From the NCBI GenBank assembly GCA_947482345.1, contig CANKJN010000007.1, forward strand, positions 1 to 44,862: a stretch of 44,862 nt of DNA, read 5' to 3'. This document shows positions 25,420-34,183 of this stretch, piece by piece (the first letter of the stretch is position 1; each line of letters starts with the position of its first letter). The stretch comes from Spartobacteria bacterium. Lineage in GTDB: Bacteria; Verrucomicrobiota; Verrucomicrobiia; Chthoniobacterales; UBA6821. Both the position numbers and the translations under genes were made by a program. The notes beneath the pieces are model-generated. The model did not search any database. It was not told where the DNA came from and saw only the letters and a program-made list of their open reading frames with translations.

Positions 25420-28400
25420 TTAAGCCCTAGCCTTCTCTTCCGAGTAGGTCTCATAGACGTGCTCGAAGACAACTCCGCATTTGTTTTTGTAGAGTTCGGG
25501 GGCGTAGGCGCGGGGAAGCCCCTCATCAAGGGTCTCCTCGATGGCGTTCTTGACGAGAGCTCGGGCCTGTATCGTCTGCCGCCAGTTGAAAGTAATCAGG
25601 CGTTGGAGTCTCTGATGGAGAAGGCGGGCCACCTTCTTGACCTCTTCCTTTTCATCAGTGGACAGCTCGGGTCCGGGACGGGTCAGGAGATCAAAGACGG
25701 TCAGCTCCTCCTCGGTAAGATTTTCCCGAACATGCCGGGCCTCCTCCTCAGACAGGTTTCGGCTTAACTCCAGAAGTTCCTGATACAGTTGCTCAATGGT
25801 CTTGCTCCCATTGTTGTAGGCCTCGATCAGCTCCTCGAACTTCTCCGTGTAGTTGGTCCGGGTGCGATTCATCGCGATCAGGCGGTCGAGCAATGCCTTC
25901 ACCGAAGCCTTCAGGGCTTCCAGTTCGATATTCTTCTTTTTGGAATTCTTAAAGCGCTTGGCCAGTGCCGCGAAATCAATCTTGCTAAGATCCAGCAGAG
26001 GGAGTGGCTTCGCCGCCATCTCCACACCCTCGATTGACTGGTCGAGCAGCTCATTGATCCGCCCCATGACCACGGAAACATCGGGCGGGTTGGGATTGAG
26101 CTGGGACTTGATTGCCTCTGCAATCGCCACAAGGCAGCTCACTCGGGGTGTATGGTCAAGCACCTCCGGACTCGGCTTCACGGCATCATACAGAGTCCGG
26201 ACAATCCGATCATGCGCTAGAAACTCCTTCCGCAGAGGATCGGGCGAGATCAGAGCATTCACCGCTTCGCTCAACAGATTCAGACGCTCCATCGTCTTCG
26301 GTGGTGCCTCCTCGATAACAGATAGATTCACTCGCTTACTGGCGCAGAATTGAGTCGCTTCATCGATCGCTTTCCTCAGGTCGGCGATCAGTTGCTCCTT
26401 ATTGCGGACTGGGGTGACTCCCCCCTGCCCTGCGCCATAGACCGCGAGCGCTTTCTCCAGTGAGGCAAAGACGTTGGCGTAATCCACGATCAGACCACTG
26501 TGCTTGCCGGGGAAGACCCGGTTCGCTCGTGCGATTGTCTGCATGAGCGTGTGATTCCGCATCGGCTTGTCGAGGTAGATAGTCGAGCAGCTCGGGGCGT
26601 CGAAGCCGGTCAGCCACATCGCGCAGACAAAGACCAGCCGGAGAGGATCCTCCGTCTCCTTGAACTTCTCATCCAGCTCTTCGGCGTTCATCCGCTCGCG
26701 ATGGGGACGGATATCGAGACCGAGCTTCTGCATCTGATCGATCTCGTTCTGCCCCGGCGACACGATCACCGCCATGTCGGTTTCCTGTAGAATCTTCAGA
26801 CGCGCTTCGAGTTCGGCCGTTATCTCGGGATCTAGCTGATATCCTGCTAAATCCTTGCTTACCCTGACTATCTCCTCATCCCATAGACGGCAAACCTTCG
26901 CATGCATCCGGAGTGCGGTCGCCTTGTCAATGGAGACCACCATCGCCTTCCCTTGGAATCCACGGCCAAGGAAATGATTCACGATATCCTTGGCCACCGT
27001 CTCCAGACGGTCATCGCGGGTGATGATGTGGTATTGGCGGTTGAGATCCCGTTCCAGCTTGGCCTCCTGCTCGGGGTTGAGTTGCGCCTCCTCGATCAGG
27101 TCATAGATCTGATCGTTCAGATCGGGATTCACCAGTTGGAGTTCAGGCGTCCGGTTCTCGTAGAAGAGGGGCACCGTCGCCCCGTCCTCCACCGACTGCT
27201 GGAAGTCATAGATCGAGACATAGTCGCCGAAGACCTCCTTCGTCCGCTCCTCCCCCGCGATCAGAGGCGTACCGGTGAAGGCCAGGAAGAGCGCCTTCGG
27301 CAAGGCAGCACGCATGTTGAGGGCCAGCGTGTCGTATTGGCTCCGATGTGCCTCATCGGTCAGCACGATCACGTCAGAGCGGTCGCAGAGCACCTCGGGA
27401 GTTTGGAACTTCTGGATCAGCGTGAAGACATAGCGGTGATTCCCCCGGAGCAGCTCCCTCAGCTCGGACCCACTCCCGGCATGGCACATATCCCCCTCCG
27501 CCTCGGTGACGGCACCCGTCGCCTTGAACGTGGTGGCGATCTGCTCATCCAGCTCCACGCGATCCGTCACCACGACAAAGGACCAGTTCCCCGCGACCTT
27601 GCGCAGCACCTTCTGGGCAAAGAAGACCATCGAGAAGCTCTTCCCGCTCCCCTGCGTCTGCCAGAAGACCCCACCTCGACCATGCCCCATTGCCCGGGCC
27701 GCGAGCATCGAGGTGATGGCATTGTTCACCCCGAGGAACTGGTGATTCTGCCCGATGATCTTCACCAACCCCGACTTATGCTTCGAGAAGAGCGTGAAGT
27801 TCTCCACCAGATCGAGCAGACGCCTCGGATCGCATGTTCCACGGAGCATGACCTCCAGCGAGACCCGACGCGGTTCATCCTCGCGCTCGATCCGCTTCCA
27901 CTCGAAGAAACGTCCCCAGTCAGCGGTCAGCGATCCAACCCTGCTCTCCGTGCCATTGGAGGCGATCAGGAATGCATTATACCAGAAGAGCGATGGGATC
28001 TCCCTCTTGTAGTGGGTCAGATTCTCGTCAAAAGCCACCCGAGCCGGGACTCCCGGCTTCTTAAACTCGATCACCACCAAGGGAAGTCCATTCACGAAGC
28101 CGACCAGATCGGGACGGCAGGTGTAGAGCTGGCCCGTGATACTCAGCTGGCTCACCAGCAGGAAATCATTATTCTCCGGATGCTCCCAGTCGATCACCCG
28201 CAGACGCTCCATCTTCTGCCCTCCCCGCTCCCGATCCGGGACGGAGACCGTGATACCCTGCTTCAGTAGCTCATAGATCTCCTGATTGGCCGCCTCCAGA
28301 CTCATCGCCGAGCGGTCACGGGTCAGGGCGACCACGGCGGAGTCGATCGCCTCGGCCGGGAGGGATGGGTTCAGCTTTGTGAGGGCGCCCCTCAGAGGTG

Positions 28401-28557
28401 TGGCTAATACTACCTCGCTCTTTGTTTCACGCTGGAGAGTACCGATCGGCCCGAAGGACTCCTCATCGGCCCTCACCGTCTTCCACCCCATTTCGCCAAA
28501 GAGGGCGATCGCCGGTTGCTCGACCAGCTGATCCTCGGAGTAGGCGTGGGGGCTCAT
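25420..28557 (-). CDS. hsdR: type I restriction enzyme R subunit
   Basis: 1045 residues. N-terminal PD-(D/E)xK nuclease: RPDLVGF (Asp150) and VVIEFKKPG (Glu164, Lys166). SF2 translocase: Walker A WQTQGSGKS at 300-307, TDRVELDEQ, DEAH at 401-404, FTGTPL, and motif VI region QTIARANRVFPGKHSGLIVDY. A long helical C-terminus (EEEARHVRENLTEEELTVFD) binds the methylase core. It cleaves unmodified DNA after ATP-driven translocation. It is separated from the upstream small gene by 111 bp containing a UUCG hairpin, so it may have partly separate expression. Looks intact. Confidence 0.95.
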   Translation of the reverse strand: MSPHAYSEDQLVEQPAIALFGEMGWKTVRADEESFGPIGTLQRETKSEVVLATPLRGALTKLNPSLPAEAIDSAVVALTRDRSAMSLEAANQEIYELLKQGITVSVPDRERGGQKMERLRVIDWEHPENNDFLLVSQLSITGQLYTCRPDLVGFVNGLPLVVIEFKKPGVPARVAFDENLTHYKREIPSLFWYNAFLIASNGTESRVGSLTADWGRFFEWKRIEREDEPRRVSLEVMLRGTCDPRRLLDLVENFTLFSKHKSGLVKIIGQNHQFLGVNNAITSMLAARAMGHGRGGVFWQTQGSGKSFSMVFFAQKVLRKVAGNWSFVVVTDRVELDEQIATTFKATGAVTEAEGDMCHAGSGSELRELLRGNHRYVFTLIQKFQTPEVLCDRSDVIVLTDEAHRSQYDTLALNMRAALPKALFLAFTGTPLIAGEERTKEVFGDYVSIYDFQQSVEDGATVPLFYENRTPELQLVNPDLNDQIYDLIEEAQLNPEQEAKLERDLNRQYHIITRDDRLETVAKDIVNHFLGRGFQGKAMVVSIDKATALRMHAKVCRLWDEEIVRVSKDLAGYQLDPEITAELEARLKILQETDMAVIVSPGQNEIDQMQKLGLDIRPHRERMNAEELDEKFKETEDPLRLVFVCAMWLTGFDAPSCSTIYLDKPMRNHTLMQTIARANRVFPGKHSGLIVDYANVFASLEKALAVYGAGQGGVTPVRNKEQLIADLRKAIDEATQFCASKRVNLSVIEEAPPKTMERLNLLSEAVNALISPDPLRKEFLAHDRIVRTLYDAVKPSPEVLDHTPRVSCLVAIAEAIKSQLNPNPPDVSVVMGRINELLDQSIEGVEMAAKPLPLLDLSKIDFAALAKRFKNSKKKNIELEALKASVKALLDRLIAMNRTRTNYTEKFEELIEAYNNGSKTIEQLYQELLELSRNLSEEEARHVRENLTEEELTVFDLLTRPGPELSTDEKEEVKKVARLLHQRLQRLITFNWRQTIQARALVKNAIEETLDEGLPRAYAPELYKNKCGVVFEHVYETYSEEKARA

Positions 28558-28640
28558 GGGCTAGATTGATTCTTGACTCAAAAGAGTCCTGAAGTAGGTT
28601 TTACCCATCTCATCCACCATGTTGTGGAAGGAGTTACGAG

Positions 28641-28670
28641 GCCGCTCTTCGGAGCGGCTTCAGCATTTTT
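28641..28670. other. UUCG hairpin between the small gene and hsdR
   Basis: GCCGCTC-TTCG-GAGCGGC (28641-28658). On the plus strand TTCAGCATTTTT follows, but no plus-strand gene precedes it. On the minus strand, the direction of the operon, no T-run follows. It could attenuate or process the hsd message ahead of hsdR. Confidence 0.5.
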
Positions 28671-29148
28671 AGGAATGACGGGCATGGCGTTGGAGATATT
28701 TACGGTGTCCGTTCTCATGTTGAACATAGTAAGCCGTCCAGGGGAGAATGTAATTTCCACGGTCTGACAGAACCACTAGATAGCGCTCATTGGGTAGATA
28801 AAGATGGATTCGGTTATCACGGGAACCTCGTGATTCACTCCACACCAGCACCTCGACATCCGCTTCATTTTCGATAACTGGGCGGGGCCACCGGATCCGC
28901 TCACACCGGCGGAAATCCGGAGTTCGATCCGCCTCCACTGCACCTTCTGTAATCAGGTGCCAGAAAGTGGCCTCTTTCCCTGCATATTCAGGATGGCGTT
29001 TCAGACCTAGTCTCCTACCCCGGAATAAGGGTTTCGAGTTAACAAAGTCTTCCCGGAAAGCAGCATAAATCACTTCCAGATAACGATCCCAGCTTCCCCC
29101 ACAGGAACTGAACTCGATCAAACTAGGGAGCCAATCTTTTGCAGCCAT
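28669..29148 (-). CDS. small hsd-embedded protein, possible RelE/BECR-like nuclease
   Basis: 159 residues, no signal or membrane segment. Conserved-looking blocks: TFWHLITEG (His64), RTPDFRRCERIRWPRPVIE (75-93), HLYLPNERYLVVLSDR (115-130), WTAYYV (137-142) and a basic end HRKYLQRHARH. The alternation of basic motifs, a YLVVLSDR strand and a WTAY...HR.K end resembles phage/toxin-associated BECR (barnase-EndoU-ColicinE5-RelE) folds, but I cannot confirm it. The start codon shares one base with the DUF3800 stop (TAATG), so the pair is translationally coupled. A role as accessory effector or partner of the DUF3800 protein is inference. Confidence 0.55.
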   Translation of the reverse strand: MAAKDWLPSLIEFSSCGGSWDRYLEVIYAAFREDFVNSKPLFRGRRLGLKRHPEYAGKEATFWHLITEGAVEADRTPDFRRCERIRWPRPVIENEADVEVLVWSESRGSRDNRIHLYLPNERYLVVLSDRGNYILPWTAYYVQHENGHRKYLQRHARHS

Positions 29149-29858
29149 TATTCCTTCGAGAAATTGGGCTTCCAGAAGAGCAAATTCACTTTCCGGGCGC
29201 TTAGGAGCGTCGATCTCTCAAGCGTCAATTTGCTACGCTCGTTAAAACGCTCCACTAGAGACAGCTTTGCCAGACTAGATGAGAGCCCCCTAGCCTTGTA
29301 GGAAAGAATCCCAATCAGGAGATCGGCAAGCTGCATCTGTTCGATCTCGTGGGAGTGAACCAACTGCACGGAAGTCACGATCTCCCGGTTGAAATCATAG
29401 AGACTGTTACTCAGCACCTCGTGAAGTTTCTCAACTCGTTTTCCGCCGAGAGTGTCCTTCAGATCCAGAAAGATCCTGTATCGATGCTCCTCATTGAGAA
29501 CCGCCTTGATCATGTCGAAGTAGATCTTCCAGTACCAATCATCATGGCTCTGCGCGTACTTCACATGATCCAAGGCTGATTTCTCGGGAATAATGAGGGC
29601 CCTAAAAGTAAGATCATCATCGTCGAAAAAGTAGTCCAGCCAGTGCCGATAGAAATCGAGCTTCGCCGGAGAGACCCCGGTCCATTTCACCTCCATGTGA
29701 CGAGACAGGCCCGACTCCTGCTTTAGTTCCCGCAATCTCACGGCAATTTCACGGGCCTTATCTTTAGGGCAGGTGATGGCTCCGAGCACCATGCTCTTCT
29801 GACCATCGTTCTCAAGATGGCAACTTTCATCACAGTAGATGTTCAGCAACTCGCTCAT
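29148..29858 (-). CDS. DUF3800 domain protein within the hsd operon
   Basis: 236 residues. Family marks: IYCDES (Asp10, Glu11, Ser12), EVKW at 56-59, a central IFLDLKDTLGG (Asp132), and EQMQLADLLIGILSYKARG (Gln176, Asp179). DUF3800 is thought to have an RNase H-like fold with these acidic residues as a metal site; function is not established and members are common near mobile and defence genes. Its ATG overlaps the hsdS stop by 4 bp (ATGA), which ties it firmly to the type I restriction-modification operon. Confidence 0.85.
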   Translation of the reverse strand: MSELLNIYCDESCHLENDGQKSMVLGAITCPKDKAREIAVRLRELKQESGLSRHMEVKWTGVSPAKLDFYRHWLDYFFDDDDLTFRALIIPEKSALDHVKYAQSHDDWYWKIYFDMIKAVLNEEHRYRIFLDLKDTLGGKRVEKLHEVLSNSLYDFNREIVTSVQLVHSHEIEQMQLADLLIGILSYKARGLSSSLAKLSLVERFNERSKLTLERSTLLSARKVNLLFWKPNFSKE

Positions 29859-31027
29859 GCGGCTTCGGTGGTGGGGGTTTGAAGAGGAATCTGGCCGGAG
29901 AGGAGGCGCTGGAGGAGCAGGTCGCGGGTTTTGCGGAGGTTTTGGATTAGTTTTTCGAGATTCAAAATCCTTCGAGTCATTGGAGCCACGAAATTGCCAA
30001 ACTGTTCACACACTTCCTCCGATGGAACCACTAGAGTCTTTGCAGCGTACTCTGGCCAATGCCCTTTATAGTCATTGAAGACCACAAGGCCGTTTGTTGC
30101 CCAATGTAGCCAGTAAATATTTCTGGGTATTGAAGGGCTCGAAACGAACGGCAAAATATTTTGAATCGCCGAAAATGGAAACTGAATTAGGCGTTGGTAA
30201 CAGGTATGATTTGCAAAAACTACGACAGGTGATGATTCGGATGCATGAACCCCTGGTTCGTCATCATGGTATCCAATAATGCCTGTCTTGCCTTGATCAA
30301 AAACCGGAACGGTGCCCGTAGCACTGACTGTTTTCTGATCATATTTCTTTCCTACTGGAATGCGCTTCACAATTCCCTCAACAGTCTTCACCTCCCAACC
30401 CTTTGGGATGTGCCCGAGGGGGGATGGGGTTAGTGAGGTGTTTTCGTGGCCGGGGTAGCGGTAGTGAACGAACCATTCGCGGTAGAGGTTCCGGGCCATG
30501 GTCTCGAGCACCTTGATCCTCCGCTGGCTGTTCTCGATCAACTCATCGTAGGCGGAAAGGATTCCGGCGATGCGCTTCTGCTCCGGGAGAGGGGGAACAG
30601 GGATGTGGGCTTTCCTGAAAATTGGATGATGCCCTTTGTAGTCGGATAAACTGACTCTCCCCAATGAGGCATAGTAGAAATAAATCGTCTCCGTAACTCC
30701 GGGCTTACCAACTTTAGGAAAGATATTCTGGATTGATGAGAATGGTTGCTTCATCAACCGAATCGCACAGGTATGATTTGCAAATGTGACAACCGGCTTC
30801 TGGTGTGAAGCATCAACTCCGGGCTCTTCGTTGTGGTATCCGAGTATGTCAGCAGCCGATTGATTGATTACAGGGACTGTTCCGTGAGGATAAACTGTCT
30901 TAGTTTCAAACAGCTTCCCTGGCTTGAGTTGGATGCACGCTTCTTCGGTCGGCATTGCCTTCCATCCATCTGGTAGAGGCGGCACTTCTTCGGCTATTAG
31001 CCAAACTGGCTGTCGCAGCTCTGCCAT
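29855..31027 (-). CDS. hsdS: type I restriction-modification specificity subunit S
   Basis: 390 residues: TRD1 about 38-146, first conserved helix 147-187 (PPLPEQKRIAGILSAYDELI), TRD2 about 227-335, second conserved helix 340-380 (LEKLIQNLRKTRDLLLQRLL). The two target-recognition domains are unusually alike: GYHNEEPGV (63-71) and GYHDDEPGV (252-260), FANHTC (82-87 and 271-276), and DYKGH (129-133 and 319-323) recur 189-190 residues apart. Near-identical TRDs predict two related half-sites, hence a nearly palindromic bipartite target. The gene starts 3 bp after hsdM. Confidence 0.93.
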   Translation of the reverse strand: MAELRQPVWLIAEEVPPLPDGWKAMPTEEACIQLKPGKLFETKTVYPHGTVPVINQSAADILGYHNEEPGVDASHQKPVVTFANHTCAIRLMKQPFSSIQNIFPKVGKPGVTETIYFYYASLGRVSLSDYKGHHPIFRKAHIPVPPLPEQKRIAGILSAYDELIENSQRRIKVLETMARNLYREWFVHYRYPGHENTSLTPSPLGHIPKGWEVKTVEGIVKRIPVGKKYDQKTVSATGTVPVFDQGKTGIIGYHDDEPGVHASESSPVVVFANHTCYQRLIQFPFSAIQNILPFVSSPSIPRNIYWLHWATNGLVVFNDYKGHWPEYAAKTLVVPSEEVCEQFGNFVAPMTRRILNLEKLIQNLRKTRDLLLQRLLSGQIPLQTPTTEAA

Positions 31028-31030
31028 ATC

Positions 31031-32656
31031 TCACCCCTCCAAGATCTCAGTGACGTTCTGAGCGATGGTTGCTTCGAGTTCGCGGGCTTGGGCGTTTAGC
31101 GCTGTCAGTTCTTCGTTCAGGGTCTCAAGCTGCTCCTTGAAGTCCTCGTCACTGACTTCCTCGCCGGGAGCAACGCCGACGTAGCGCCCGGGATTCAAAC
31201 TCCACCCCTGCGCCTCGATCTCGCTAAGGGTCGCGGCCTTACAGAGGCCAGGGATGTCGACATAGGCAGGCTTGGCTCCGAAGATTTCCTTCAGCTTCGT
31301 CTCGGCTTCCTCGCCTCCGAGGGTGTAGTCGGGCTGCTCGCCACGGTAGAGGCGGACGAGATTCGCAATAAATCCGACCTGTCCCGCGGTCCAGTCGCGG
31401 TGGGCCCTATCGATCTGGCGGTAGATGTGGCGCGCGTCGATGAAGAGGACGGTGTCAGCGCGGGGCGTGGTGGCTTTTCCCTTATCCAAAAACCAGAGGG
31501 TGCAGGGGAGCGTGACGGTATAGAACATGTTCGGCCCGACGGAGACCATGACGTCGACGCTGCGGCTCTCGATGAGCTGGCGGCGGAGTTCCTGCTCGGA
31601 GGAGCGGGCGTCGGAGGCGGAGTTTGCCATGACGAATCCGGCGCGGCCTTTAGCATTCAGCGCGGAGTGGAAGAGCTGGATCCAGAGGTAGTTCGCATTG
31701 TCGGTGCGGGGGAGGCCGAAGGGGTAGCGGCGTCCGGGGCCGACGGAGCCGCTGAGGCGTTCCTTGTCGACGGCGTTGACATTGAAGGGAGGGTTCGCAA
31801 GGACGAAGTCGAACCGTCCCGTGGCGGCGTGGGGGTCGTCGTAGTAGCTGATGGCCTGCTTGATATTCCCCTCGAGGCCGTGGACCGCGAGGTTCATGCG
31901 GCAGAGGTCGGTGGTGGCGCGTTCTTTCTCTTGGCCGAAGATGGCGAGCTCCTTGGCGGGGTTCTTTCGATGCTCGGAGACGAAGCGGGCGCTCTGGACG
32001 AACATACCGCCGGAGCCGCAGGCGGGGTCGAGGATGTAGCCGTGGTAGGGCTCGAGGATCTCGGTGAGTAGGCGGACGATGCTGGAGGGGGTGTAGAACT
32101 CTCCCCCACCCTGCCCCTCGGTCATGGCAAACTCGGAGAGGAAGTATTCGTAGACGCGACCGAAGGTGTCGTAGTCGGTGGTGACGGGGATCTCGGAGAT
32201 TTTCTTGAGGAGGCCCTTGAGCAGGGTGCTCGAGAAGAGGTTGTAGGTCTTCGGGAGGATGCCGGAGAGCTGGGGATTCTGCTTCTCGACGGCCAGCATG
32301 GCGGCATTCACCTTCGCTCCGATGTTCTCCGCCTCGGGGAGAGATAGGAGGTAGTCGAACCGGGCTTCAGCTGGGAGGTAGAGGATCCCCTCGGCATGGT
32401 AGGCATCGGGCTCCTCGACGCGGCTGCCACGACGGGAAGAGCGGGAGGAGGCTCCGGCGGAGGCTGCCTCGAGCTTAGCCCGCTGGGCGGCGAAGCGGGC
32501 ATCGGCAAAGCGGAGGAAGATGAGACCGAGGACTGGGGTAGAGTATTCGGCGGCCTTCAGGCCGGAATTTGCCCGAAACTGGTCAGCGGCATCCCAGAGA
32601 CGCTTCTCCAGCGTGCTCGAAGCCTGATCTCGTTCAGTTGGGGCAATCCATTTCAC
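31031..32656 (-). CDS. hsdM: type I restriction-modification methyltransferase subunit M
   Basis: 541 residues, N6-adenine methyltransferase. Helical N-terminal domain, then SAM motif [11 protein letters not shown] (210-219) and catalytic motif IV NPPF (288-291). [14 protein letters not shown] at 184-197 is typical of HsdM, and a coiled-coil end ([20 protein letters not shown]) contacts HsdS. An Arg/Ser-rich insert ([15 protein letters not shown], 66-80) sits in the N-terminal domain. First gene of the operon hsdM-hsdS-DUF3800-small-hsdR. Confidence 0.95.
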
Positions 32657-33112: not shown

Positions 33113-34183
33113 TTATAGAGAGACATTGCTCAGGAGGTTATAGAGCGGCTCATTGATATAGTAATTGGATTTTCCCCGCTTCTCTTTGCGGAGGATTCCC
33201 TCCGCAACCAGCAACTCCAGATATTTCGCCGCAGTGACGCGTGAGACTCCAAGGTCTTTCTCCACGAACTCGATTTTCGTGTAGGGATGGCGAAAGAGAT
33301 TATTGAGCAGATCCTGCGAATAGATCTTCTCCAACCGCTTCCGGATCACCTCTTTTGTCTCATGCATGAGGTCCCGGAGTGACTTCACCAACGCGATCTC
33401 GCTGCGCGCCGTCAACGAGACTCCGCGGACCATGTAGAGACACCACTCCTTCCAGAGCCCCTTCTCCCGGGCTTCCTGCAGGAGCCTATAGTATTCACCT
33501 TTGGTGGTGGTGATGTAACGGCTCAGGTAAAGCACCGGCAGGTCAAGAAGACCCTCCCTTTGCAGGATCAGTAAATTCAGGATGCGACCGGTTCTTCCGT
33601 TACCGTCATAGAAGGGATGAATGCTCTCGAACTGATGATGGGCGATCGCCATGCGAAGGATTGGGTTCAGGTCATCCTCCGAGTGAAGGAAATCGACAAG
33701 ATTTCCCATGAGAGATTCCACCTCAGCCGCGCTCTGTGGCGGCTCGTAGACGATCCGGCCCGTTGCGGGATTCTTGAGGACGGTTCCGGGTAGCTTGCGG
33801 AGCCCGGGTTTACCGGGTTCTATCCTCGCCTGAACATCCAGCAGGGTCTTCAGTCGGATCAGGCCGCTCTCACGCACAGCATCGAAGCCCACGCTCAGCG
33901 CCTCCACATAGTGTCGCACCTCCTTGACCGCACCGGAAGCAGATCCCTCCTCGTGGCCAGCGAAGAGCTCGTCATGTGTGGTAATGATGTTTTCGATCTC
34001 CGAACTGTCCTTCGCTTCCTGGATCGAGAGGGTACTGATCAGGAGCGATTGGTTGGGCAGGGATTCGCAAAACCCCTTCAATTCGGCAAGGTGGCGCTCC
34101 GCCTCAGCGACAGCCATCCAGACTTCTCGGCATTCTAGAGCAGCAGCGAGGTCTGGAATGGGGAGCGGTGGAAGAGATGCCAT
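33113..34183 (-). CDS. Fic domain protein (AMP-transferase type) with winged helix
   Basis: 356 residues. The Fic core HPFYDGNGRTGR (189-200) is complete, with catalytic His189, and is preceded by a flap-like RIVYEPPQ stretch. An N-terminal inhibitory motif SSEIEN (60-65) fits [S/T]xxxE[G/N], making it a self-inhibited class II Fic. The C-terminal third (about 280-356, TKIEFVEKDLGVSRVTAAKY, LRKEKRGKSNYY) is a winged helix and could bind DNA. It probably AMPylates a protein target. Upstream lies a striking operator-like array that overlaps the start codon, suggesting autoregulation through the winged helix. It sits beside the hsd operon, same strand. Confidence 0.93.
   Translation of the reverse strand: MASLPPLPIPDLAAALECREVWMAVAEAERHLAELKGFCESLPNQSLLISTLSIQEAKDSSEIENIITTHDELFAGHEEGSASGAVKEVRHYVEALSVGFDAVRESGLIRLKTLLDVQARIEPGKPGLRKLPGTVLKNPATGRIVYEPPQSAAEVESLMGNLVDFLHSEDDLNPILRMAIAHHQFESIHPFYDGNGRTGRILNLLILQREGLLDLPVLYLSRYITTTKGEYYRLLQEAREKGLWKEWCLYMVRGVSLTARSEIALVKSLRDLMHETKEVIRKRLEKIYSQDLLNNLFRHPYTKIEFVEKDLGVSRVTAAKYLELLVAEGILRKEKRGKSNYYINEPLYNLLSNVSL

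Follow-up and report, generated by a model that had tools for sequence, protein, structure and literature searches.

A gene pair between hsdS and hsdR of a Spartobacteria type I restriction-modification operon is related to phage P1 rlfA-rlfB and may form a portable two-nuclease cassette

What are two small genes doing between the specificity and restriction genes of a type I restriction-modification (R-M) operon, and is their business tied to that operon or to something that moves through it? The question is raised by a contig from a Spartobacteria bacterium (CANKJN010000007.1), of which the whole stretch of 44,862 nucleotides analyzed here is called the window. Its minus strand carries an operon in the order hsdM-hsdS-DUF3800-small ORF-hsdR, and all five frames are open and intact (Table 1). 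A first-pass annotation, made from the letters of the DNA, had read this same order with overlaps of 4 bp and 1 bp and had described the middle genes as a guest pair within a type I operon; coordinates and sequence confirm the order and the overlaps, and the domain matches of HsdM, HsdS and HsdR around the pair bear out the type I setting. The four bases shared by the end of hsdS and the start of the DUF3800 gene are ATGA at 29855-29858, while the single base shared by the DUF3800 gene and the small ORF is the A of TAATG at position 29148. In the following the two genes are called rlfA and rlfB after their homologues in phage P1.

Table 1 Features of the operon in the window and the matches on which their naming is based.
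Feature	Position	Strand	Product and evidence
hsdM, type I R-M methylase subunit	31031..32656	-	541 aa, GTG start; N6_Mtase 2.3e-76, HsdM_N 4.8e-21; PADLOC MTase_I 4e-229
hsdS, type I specificity subunit	29855..31027	-	390 aa; Methylase_S 4.4e-11; PADLOC Specificity_I 5e-51
DUF3800 protein = PDC-M04A = RlfA	29148..29858	-	236 aa; PF12686 8.7e-11; PDC-M04A 1.2e-86; 42% identity to P1 RlfA
Small protein = PDC-M04B = RlfB	28669..29148	-	159 aa; PDC-M04B 3e-65; 40% identity to P1 RlfB
rlfB-hsdR gap, 111 bp, with G+C-rich hairpin at 28638-28661	28558..28668	-	sequence reading
hsdR, type I restriction subunit	25420..28557	-	1045 aa; HSDR_N 3.8e-45, SWI2_SNF2 3.9e-67; TIGR00348 4e-147

Because 111 bp separate the small ORF from hsdR, the pair, although placed between S and R, is not coupled to hsdR; a gap of 115-188 bp is seen at five further loci with hsdR behind rlfB. 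The hairpin in this gap has a UUCG loop on the plus strand and is terminator-like on that strand only. A scan for promoters and terminators returned sites no commoner than in shuffled sequences (7 terminator-like sites against 7.2 expected, not significant), and none of the DUF3800-associated RNA motifs scanned across the window reached the gathering threshold. A SoFic-like Fic protein with Fic_N, Fic and SoFic C-terminal domains is encoded immediately upstream of hsdM at 33113-34183, also on the minus strand; SoFic is counted among the defence systems in published surveys. The source genome, a 2.36 Mb draft, has rlfAB in single copy. Since relatives of the pair were found in none of 96 genomes from the window's own genus and order, the locus is either a recent horizontal gain or sporadic.

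The first-pass annotation had set the pair apart from known guests such as PrrC and the Rlo proteins. It is already listed in PADLOC (PADLOC-DB 2.0.0) under the name PDC-M04 as an unvalidated phage-defence candidate. The DUF3800 protein matches PDC-M04A (PDLC04353) over residues 1-232 of 236, and the small protein matches PDC-M04B (PDLC04357) over residues 3-157 of 159, with ten more M04B models below. The locus thus has what defines PDC-M04: a near-full-length M04A, an adjacent M04B and an embedding in a known defence system, here between hsdS and hsdR. The PDCs are candidates collected by “guilt-by-embedding”, most of them without validation (PMC12988326, PMC10855318). A search of the available literature for PDC-M04 by name found nothing, nor were experiments on antiphage activity of any member of the rlfAB family found there. 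A tblastn search identified rlfA-rlfB of phage P1 (identities in Table 1) and rapA-rapB of phage P7 as homologues in identical order. The one-base overlap is shared as well, base 52444 of P1 being both the end of rlfA and the start of rlfB, and the P1 proteins themselves match PDC-M04A and PDC-M04B (1e-95 and 1e-51, respectively). An RlfA homologue plus RlfB was also found by tblastn in the Bifidobacterium phage Bbif-1, where the RlfB gene (L086, 5001-5438), downstream of the “RlfA phagic protein”, is missing from the annotation of the record.

It is clear from a wider sampling that the two genes are almost inseparable. Among 80 independently fetched genomic loci from many phyla the DUF3800 gene lies directly upstream of the small gene in 75, and since this adjacency is kept and P1 has the same one-base overlap, the arrangement is not due to chance. 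The five exceptions are one contig edge (L008) and four truncated RlfB genes without RlfA, three of them from Chlorobiaceae MAGs (L049, L050 and L064) and one from elsewhere (L054). On viral contigs RlfB adjoins RlfA in 43 of the 44 RlfA genes with room downstream, and in the remaining one (L122, 5669-8889) RlfB is split by a two-gene insertion resembling an insertion element, leaving the upstream RlfA intact. When 369 sampled genomes of one class were searched with strict hits, four intact adjacent pairs were obtained, together with a fifth RlfA that stops at a contig end (L097) and a fifth RlfB that is a truncated solitary copy (L092); every solitary RlfB that we saw (L049, L050, L064, L054 and L092) is truncated at the N-terminus. 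In the same sample four distant DUF3800 genes (129-136 bits; L098, L099, L100 and L108) have a divergent RlfB directly downstream (PADLOC PDLC04359), and the remaining weaker DUF3800 matches are without an adjacent RlfB. A scan of viral sequences with the divergent RlfB gave no relatives. The first-pass annotation had considered that a pair found mostly apart would speak against its reading, and the opposite is seen in both genomic and viral loci.

Adjacency is accompanied by co-evolution. Over the 118 pairs left after removal of duplicate loci the evolutionary distances of RlfA and RlfB are correlated with r=0.86 (shuffled maximum 0.22), and RlfA correlates with HsdM, HsdS and HsdR at 0.38, 0.50 and 0.43, compared to about 0.8 for RlfA and RlfB in the same sets, all of these values being uncorrected for shared phylogeny. 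RlfA and RlfB therefore form one evolutionary unit that travels among R-M hosts, with some tracking of the host.

The first-pass annotation had presumed an RNase H fold for the DUF3800 protein, and the structural comparison supports this. The AlphaFold2 model of RlfA (pLDDT 92.1) gave 19 Foldseek hits in the PDB at E<=0.001, all of them RNase HII or H2 with a TM of about 0.5, the best being an archaeal RNase HII (1.6e-6, prob 1.00) and with human and mouse RNase H2 among the others. Four acidic residues, D10, E11, D132 and D179, are invariant in the 118 pairs (118/118); D10 and E11 are in strand 1, D132 ends the strand 126-132 and D179 is in the helix 173-189. This order we take to be that of the RNase HII D-E-D-D tetrad, an equivalence based on order and secondary structure rather than on superposition. 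RlfA is accordingly predicted, on the strength of the model, to be an RNase H2-fold nuclease with D10, E11, D132 and D179 as putative metal-binding residues. For the DUF3800 proteins of CRISPR loci an RNase H fold has been noted, “with a catalytic rearrangement” (PMC10910872, PMC12669027).

The small protein had been called nuclease-like and is harder to place. In sequence searches of Pfam, NCBIfam and the PDB nothing credible was found for RlfB (the protein of the window has no Pfam match at E<1), and 70 close homologues fared likewise in Pfam. Its AlphaFold2 model (pLDDT 93.8) consists of helices up to residue 93, followed by strands 101-106, 112-118, 123-129 and 134-141 and a C-terminal helix. 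By published definition a BECR protein combines an N-terminal helical segment with a four-strand meander whose strand 4 often carries a Ser or Thr; in the majority of phage BECRs the N-terminal helix also contains a His (PMC3482391, PMC5512222). By the order of its secondary structure RlfB fits this layout, H64 being part of the helix 60-66 and T138 belonging to the last of the four strands. Residues H64, R81 and T/S138 are invariant (each 118/118) and R84 is nearly so (114/118), making H64, R81, R84 and T138 a putative active site. The best Foldseek match of RlfB was HigB1 (E 0.15, prob 0.35), which is not significant, and chains of RelE, ParE, RnlA and Cami1 recur within the weak top 50; against viral models the search found one uncharacterised siphovirus homologue and nothing else. 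Two divergent RlfB proteins weakly match Pfam PBECR2 (E 0.01 and 0.029), and in a profile-profile comparison the broad RlfB family aligned weakly with five PBECR2 sequences in the expected region (P 0.022, prob 2.2%), with the unrelated RlfA as control at 0.51. PBECR4 (PF18813) had no hits in 145 genomes of the phylum. Because the fold search is without a significant match, we regard RlfB as a probable rather than proven BECR RNase, an assignment that we hold with fair confidence and that rests on the layout and the conserved residues. The nuclease-like character thus survives as far as the BECR layout and the weak PBECR2 and RelE/HigB/RnlA matches carry it, short of a significant fold match, and the structure prediction gives no indication of a non-nuclease fold.

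The first-pass annotation had suggested a search for the pair in other hsd operons and defence islands, and it is indeed found there, albeit not only with type I systems. Within 8 kb, and with labels from local profiles that are approximate, 37 of the 80 loci have type I genes and 11 have type III-type or helicase genes; three have a DUF1156 methylase with a PLD-helicase, three a DpdF-like helicase, one a type I/IIG mix and one a DRT1a reverse transcriptase (L030); L041, where DRT1a is found as well, is also type I and tallied as such. At the 47 loci with full flanks an R-M or defence gene is nearby in 36, type I in 23, and 11 are without a recognised defence gene nearby. The proposed defence setting therefore holds for 36/47 loci but not as something specific to type I. 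Even within type I loci the gene order varies between MS-AB-R, RMS-AB and AB-MS (M, S and R for the hsd genes, A and B for the pair), and prophages also carry the pair. Collectively, the cassette resides preferentially, not exclusively, in R-M or other defence operons and mobile elements. At two Pseudomonas loci (L041, 3190-7297, and L030) the pair lies behind DRT1a reverse-transcriptase/nitrilase genes, and at three loci (L055, L056 and L061) it lies between the DUF1156-type methylase and the PLD-domain helicase, a recurrent host operon that is not type I.

In phage P1 (rlfAB locus at L085, 5288-6456) the pair lies behind kilA-repL, with a C1 operator. Knock-down by CRISPRi scored both genes as nonessential, with EOP values of 1.3 and 0.88, in a screen that missed five known essential genes, repL included (PMC10695390), and rlfAB is in the variable region of P1-like plasmids (PMC9603915). 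We counted 516 plasmid records with repL and 103 with rlfB, or about a fifth, and in sampled plasmids (L161-L165) the slot after repL is taken instead by hokD, a ParA/DUF3892 set or a small hypothetical gene, so that it looks like a cargo site of the C1 region. The label “replication protein” (PHROG 16230 and the P1 annotation) was judged to be positional, the genes being scored nonessential and variable.

The reading that we lean towards, by a modest degree, is that the pair is a portable two-nuclease defence or conflict cassette that settles in R-M operons. RlfB would be the damaging partner, a metal-independent endoRNase in need of its partner, and RlfA a metal-dependent RNase H-fold nuclease that would be in complex with RlfB and hold it in check, and that may also supply target recognition or a second cut. 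The trigger would be foreign nucleic acid, at this locus phage DNA that meets or escapes restriction, upon which the complex would degrade RNA or RNA:DNA intermediates and block phage development or stop the infected cell from growing. On entry of P1 into the lytic phase the pair would be expressed from the promoter with the C1 operator, and the same weapon might then be turned on rival phages or on the defences of the host instead of having a role in replication. Gene loss is asymmetric: contig edges aside, an intact RlfB is never seen without RlfA, and RlfA is tolerated with a broken RlfB. These events are few, but they hint at RlfB as the dangerous partner.

The asymmetry would also suit plain toxin-antitoxin cargo, with RlfB as the toxin, RlfA as its neutraliser and the pair maintained by addiction rather than defence: RlfB without RlfA occurs only as truncated copies, RlfA is intact where an insertion splits RlfB, BECR/RelE folds are frequent among such toxins (PMC3482391) and HokD can occupy the slot in other P1-like plasmids. 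Against this, RlfA retains a predicted invariant nuclease active site, which is unusual for an antitoxin, it has no DNA-binding domain above cut-off, and the association with R-M genes goes beyond what addiction needs, although the informative cases are few; we consider simple addiction unlikely. The first-pass annotation had suggested a back-up effector released on inhibition of restriction by phage. In a PrrC-like form of this idea the type I enzyme would keep the pair physically silent until an anti-restriction protein of a phage puts HsdMSR out of action. The position between hsdS and hsdR, translationally coupled to the former, the type I genes at 37/80 loci, and the precedent of PrrC itself, which its linked type I enzyme keeps silent until the Stp protein of phage T4 activates it (PMC2610378), agree with such a latch, but the pair has no ABC-ATPase sensor as PrrC has, is not placed uniformly within type I loci, and is also found with type III, DUF1156-methylase/PLD-helicase and DRT1 genes, without any R-M genes, and in P1 under the C1 operator. 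A pair restricted to, and co-evolving with, a type I enzyme is thus not what was observed, and that RlfA tracks RlfB far better than HsdM, HsdS or HsdR speaks against a dedicated latch of the PrrC type on one R-M enzyme. Release of this kind may occur, but as a general rule the variety of hosts speaks against it; we do not favour it and rate its probability as low, below that of addiction.

Lower still, and in our judgment quite improbable, is that the pair is a nucleic-acid processing helper, trimming RNA:DNA hybrids or the products of restriction, or aiding the lytic replication of P1. RNase H2 enzymes cut the RNA within RNA:DNA hybrids, and the P1 genes are named for their place beside repL/oriL and share C1 control with the lytic replicon. 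The argument is weakened by both genes being nonessential in the P1 screen, although that screen scored the essential repL as nonessential too, by the presence of rlfB in only about a fifth of the repL-bearing plasmids, and by the PHROG 16230 label, which was apparently derived from position.

Returning to the portable two-nuclease cassette, part of what counts against it, beside the missing significant fold match of RlfB, is that 11/47 full-context loci are without a recognised defence gene and that the P1 pair is under lytic-phase control, and for these reasons it may be the element, and not the cell, that the pair serves. A bolder version, in which RlfA-RlfB is a new type of two-nuclease immune effector, is put forward here tentatively and is more doubtful than the cassette as such. 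A metal-dependent RNase H2-fold protein and a metal-independent BECR RNase would then act jointly, in a single complex, on RNA:DNA hybrids or on the transcripts of incoming DNA, and the effector would be common to bacterial R-M operons and to phages such as P1, with the part of an inter-phage weapon in the latter. A confirmed rlfAB cassette would bring a paired-nuclease effector into bacterial immunity and cast the “replication” locus of a classic phage in a new light. Although P1 has served laboratories for decades, rlfA and rlfB were named for position alone, and through the link to P1 both rlfAB and the R-M-embedded defence candidate can be tested in E. coli K-12 with tools at hand, with D10/E11/D132/D179 of RlfA and H64/R81/T138 of RlfB as loss-of-function controls.

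Among known systems PDC-M04 is the same at the family level, but its PADLOC entries are without a mechanism, and the fold, the active-site residues and the link to P1 are new relative to them. The P1 and P7 pairs share homology, gene order, the one-base overlap and the PDC-M04 match with the pair of the window, and differ in setting, the P1 pair being found behind kilA-repL with a C1 operator under the name of “replication” and the Spartobacteria pair inside hsd. The anticodon nucleases PrrC and RloC are likewise RNase guests (as predicted for rlfAB) of a type I R-M operon, but they are unrelated proteins, and rlfAB has no ATPase, a broad range of host systems and no sign of silencing by Hsd. 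The DUF3800 proteins of Cas12a2 and VI-F loci have the Pfam family and the RNase H fold in common with RlfA, but those of Cas12a2 are TPR-DUF3800 proteins beside CRISPR effectors, whereas members of the RlfA clade have a single domain and RlfB as their partner. Finally, PBECR2, other phage-BECR RNases and the RelE/HigB toxins have in common with RlfB an N-terminal helix with a His and a four-strand sheet with a Thr or Ser in strand 4; RlfB is set apart from PBECR2 and RelE/HigB by the lack of a significant sequence or fold match and by the additional conserved residues R81/R84 and W87/W103, and it stands alone with a nuclease partner instead of being part of a polyvalent or MuF protein.
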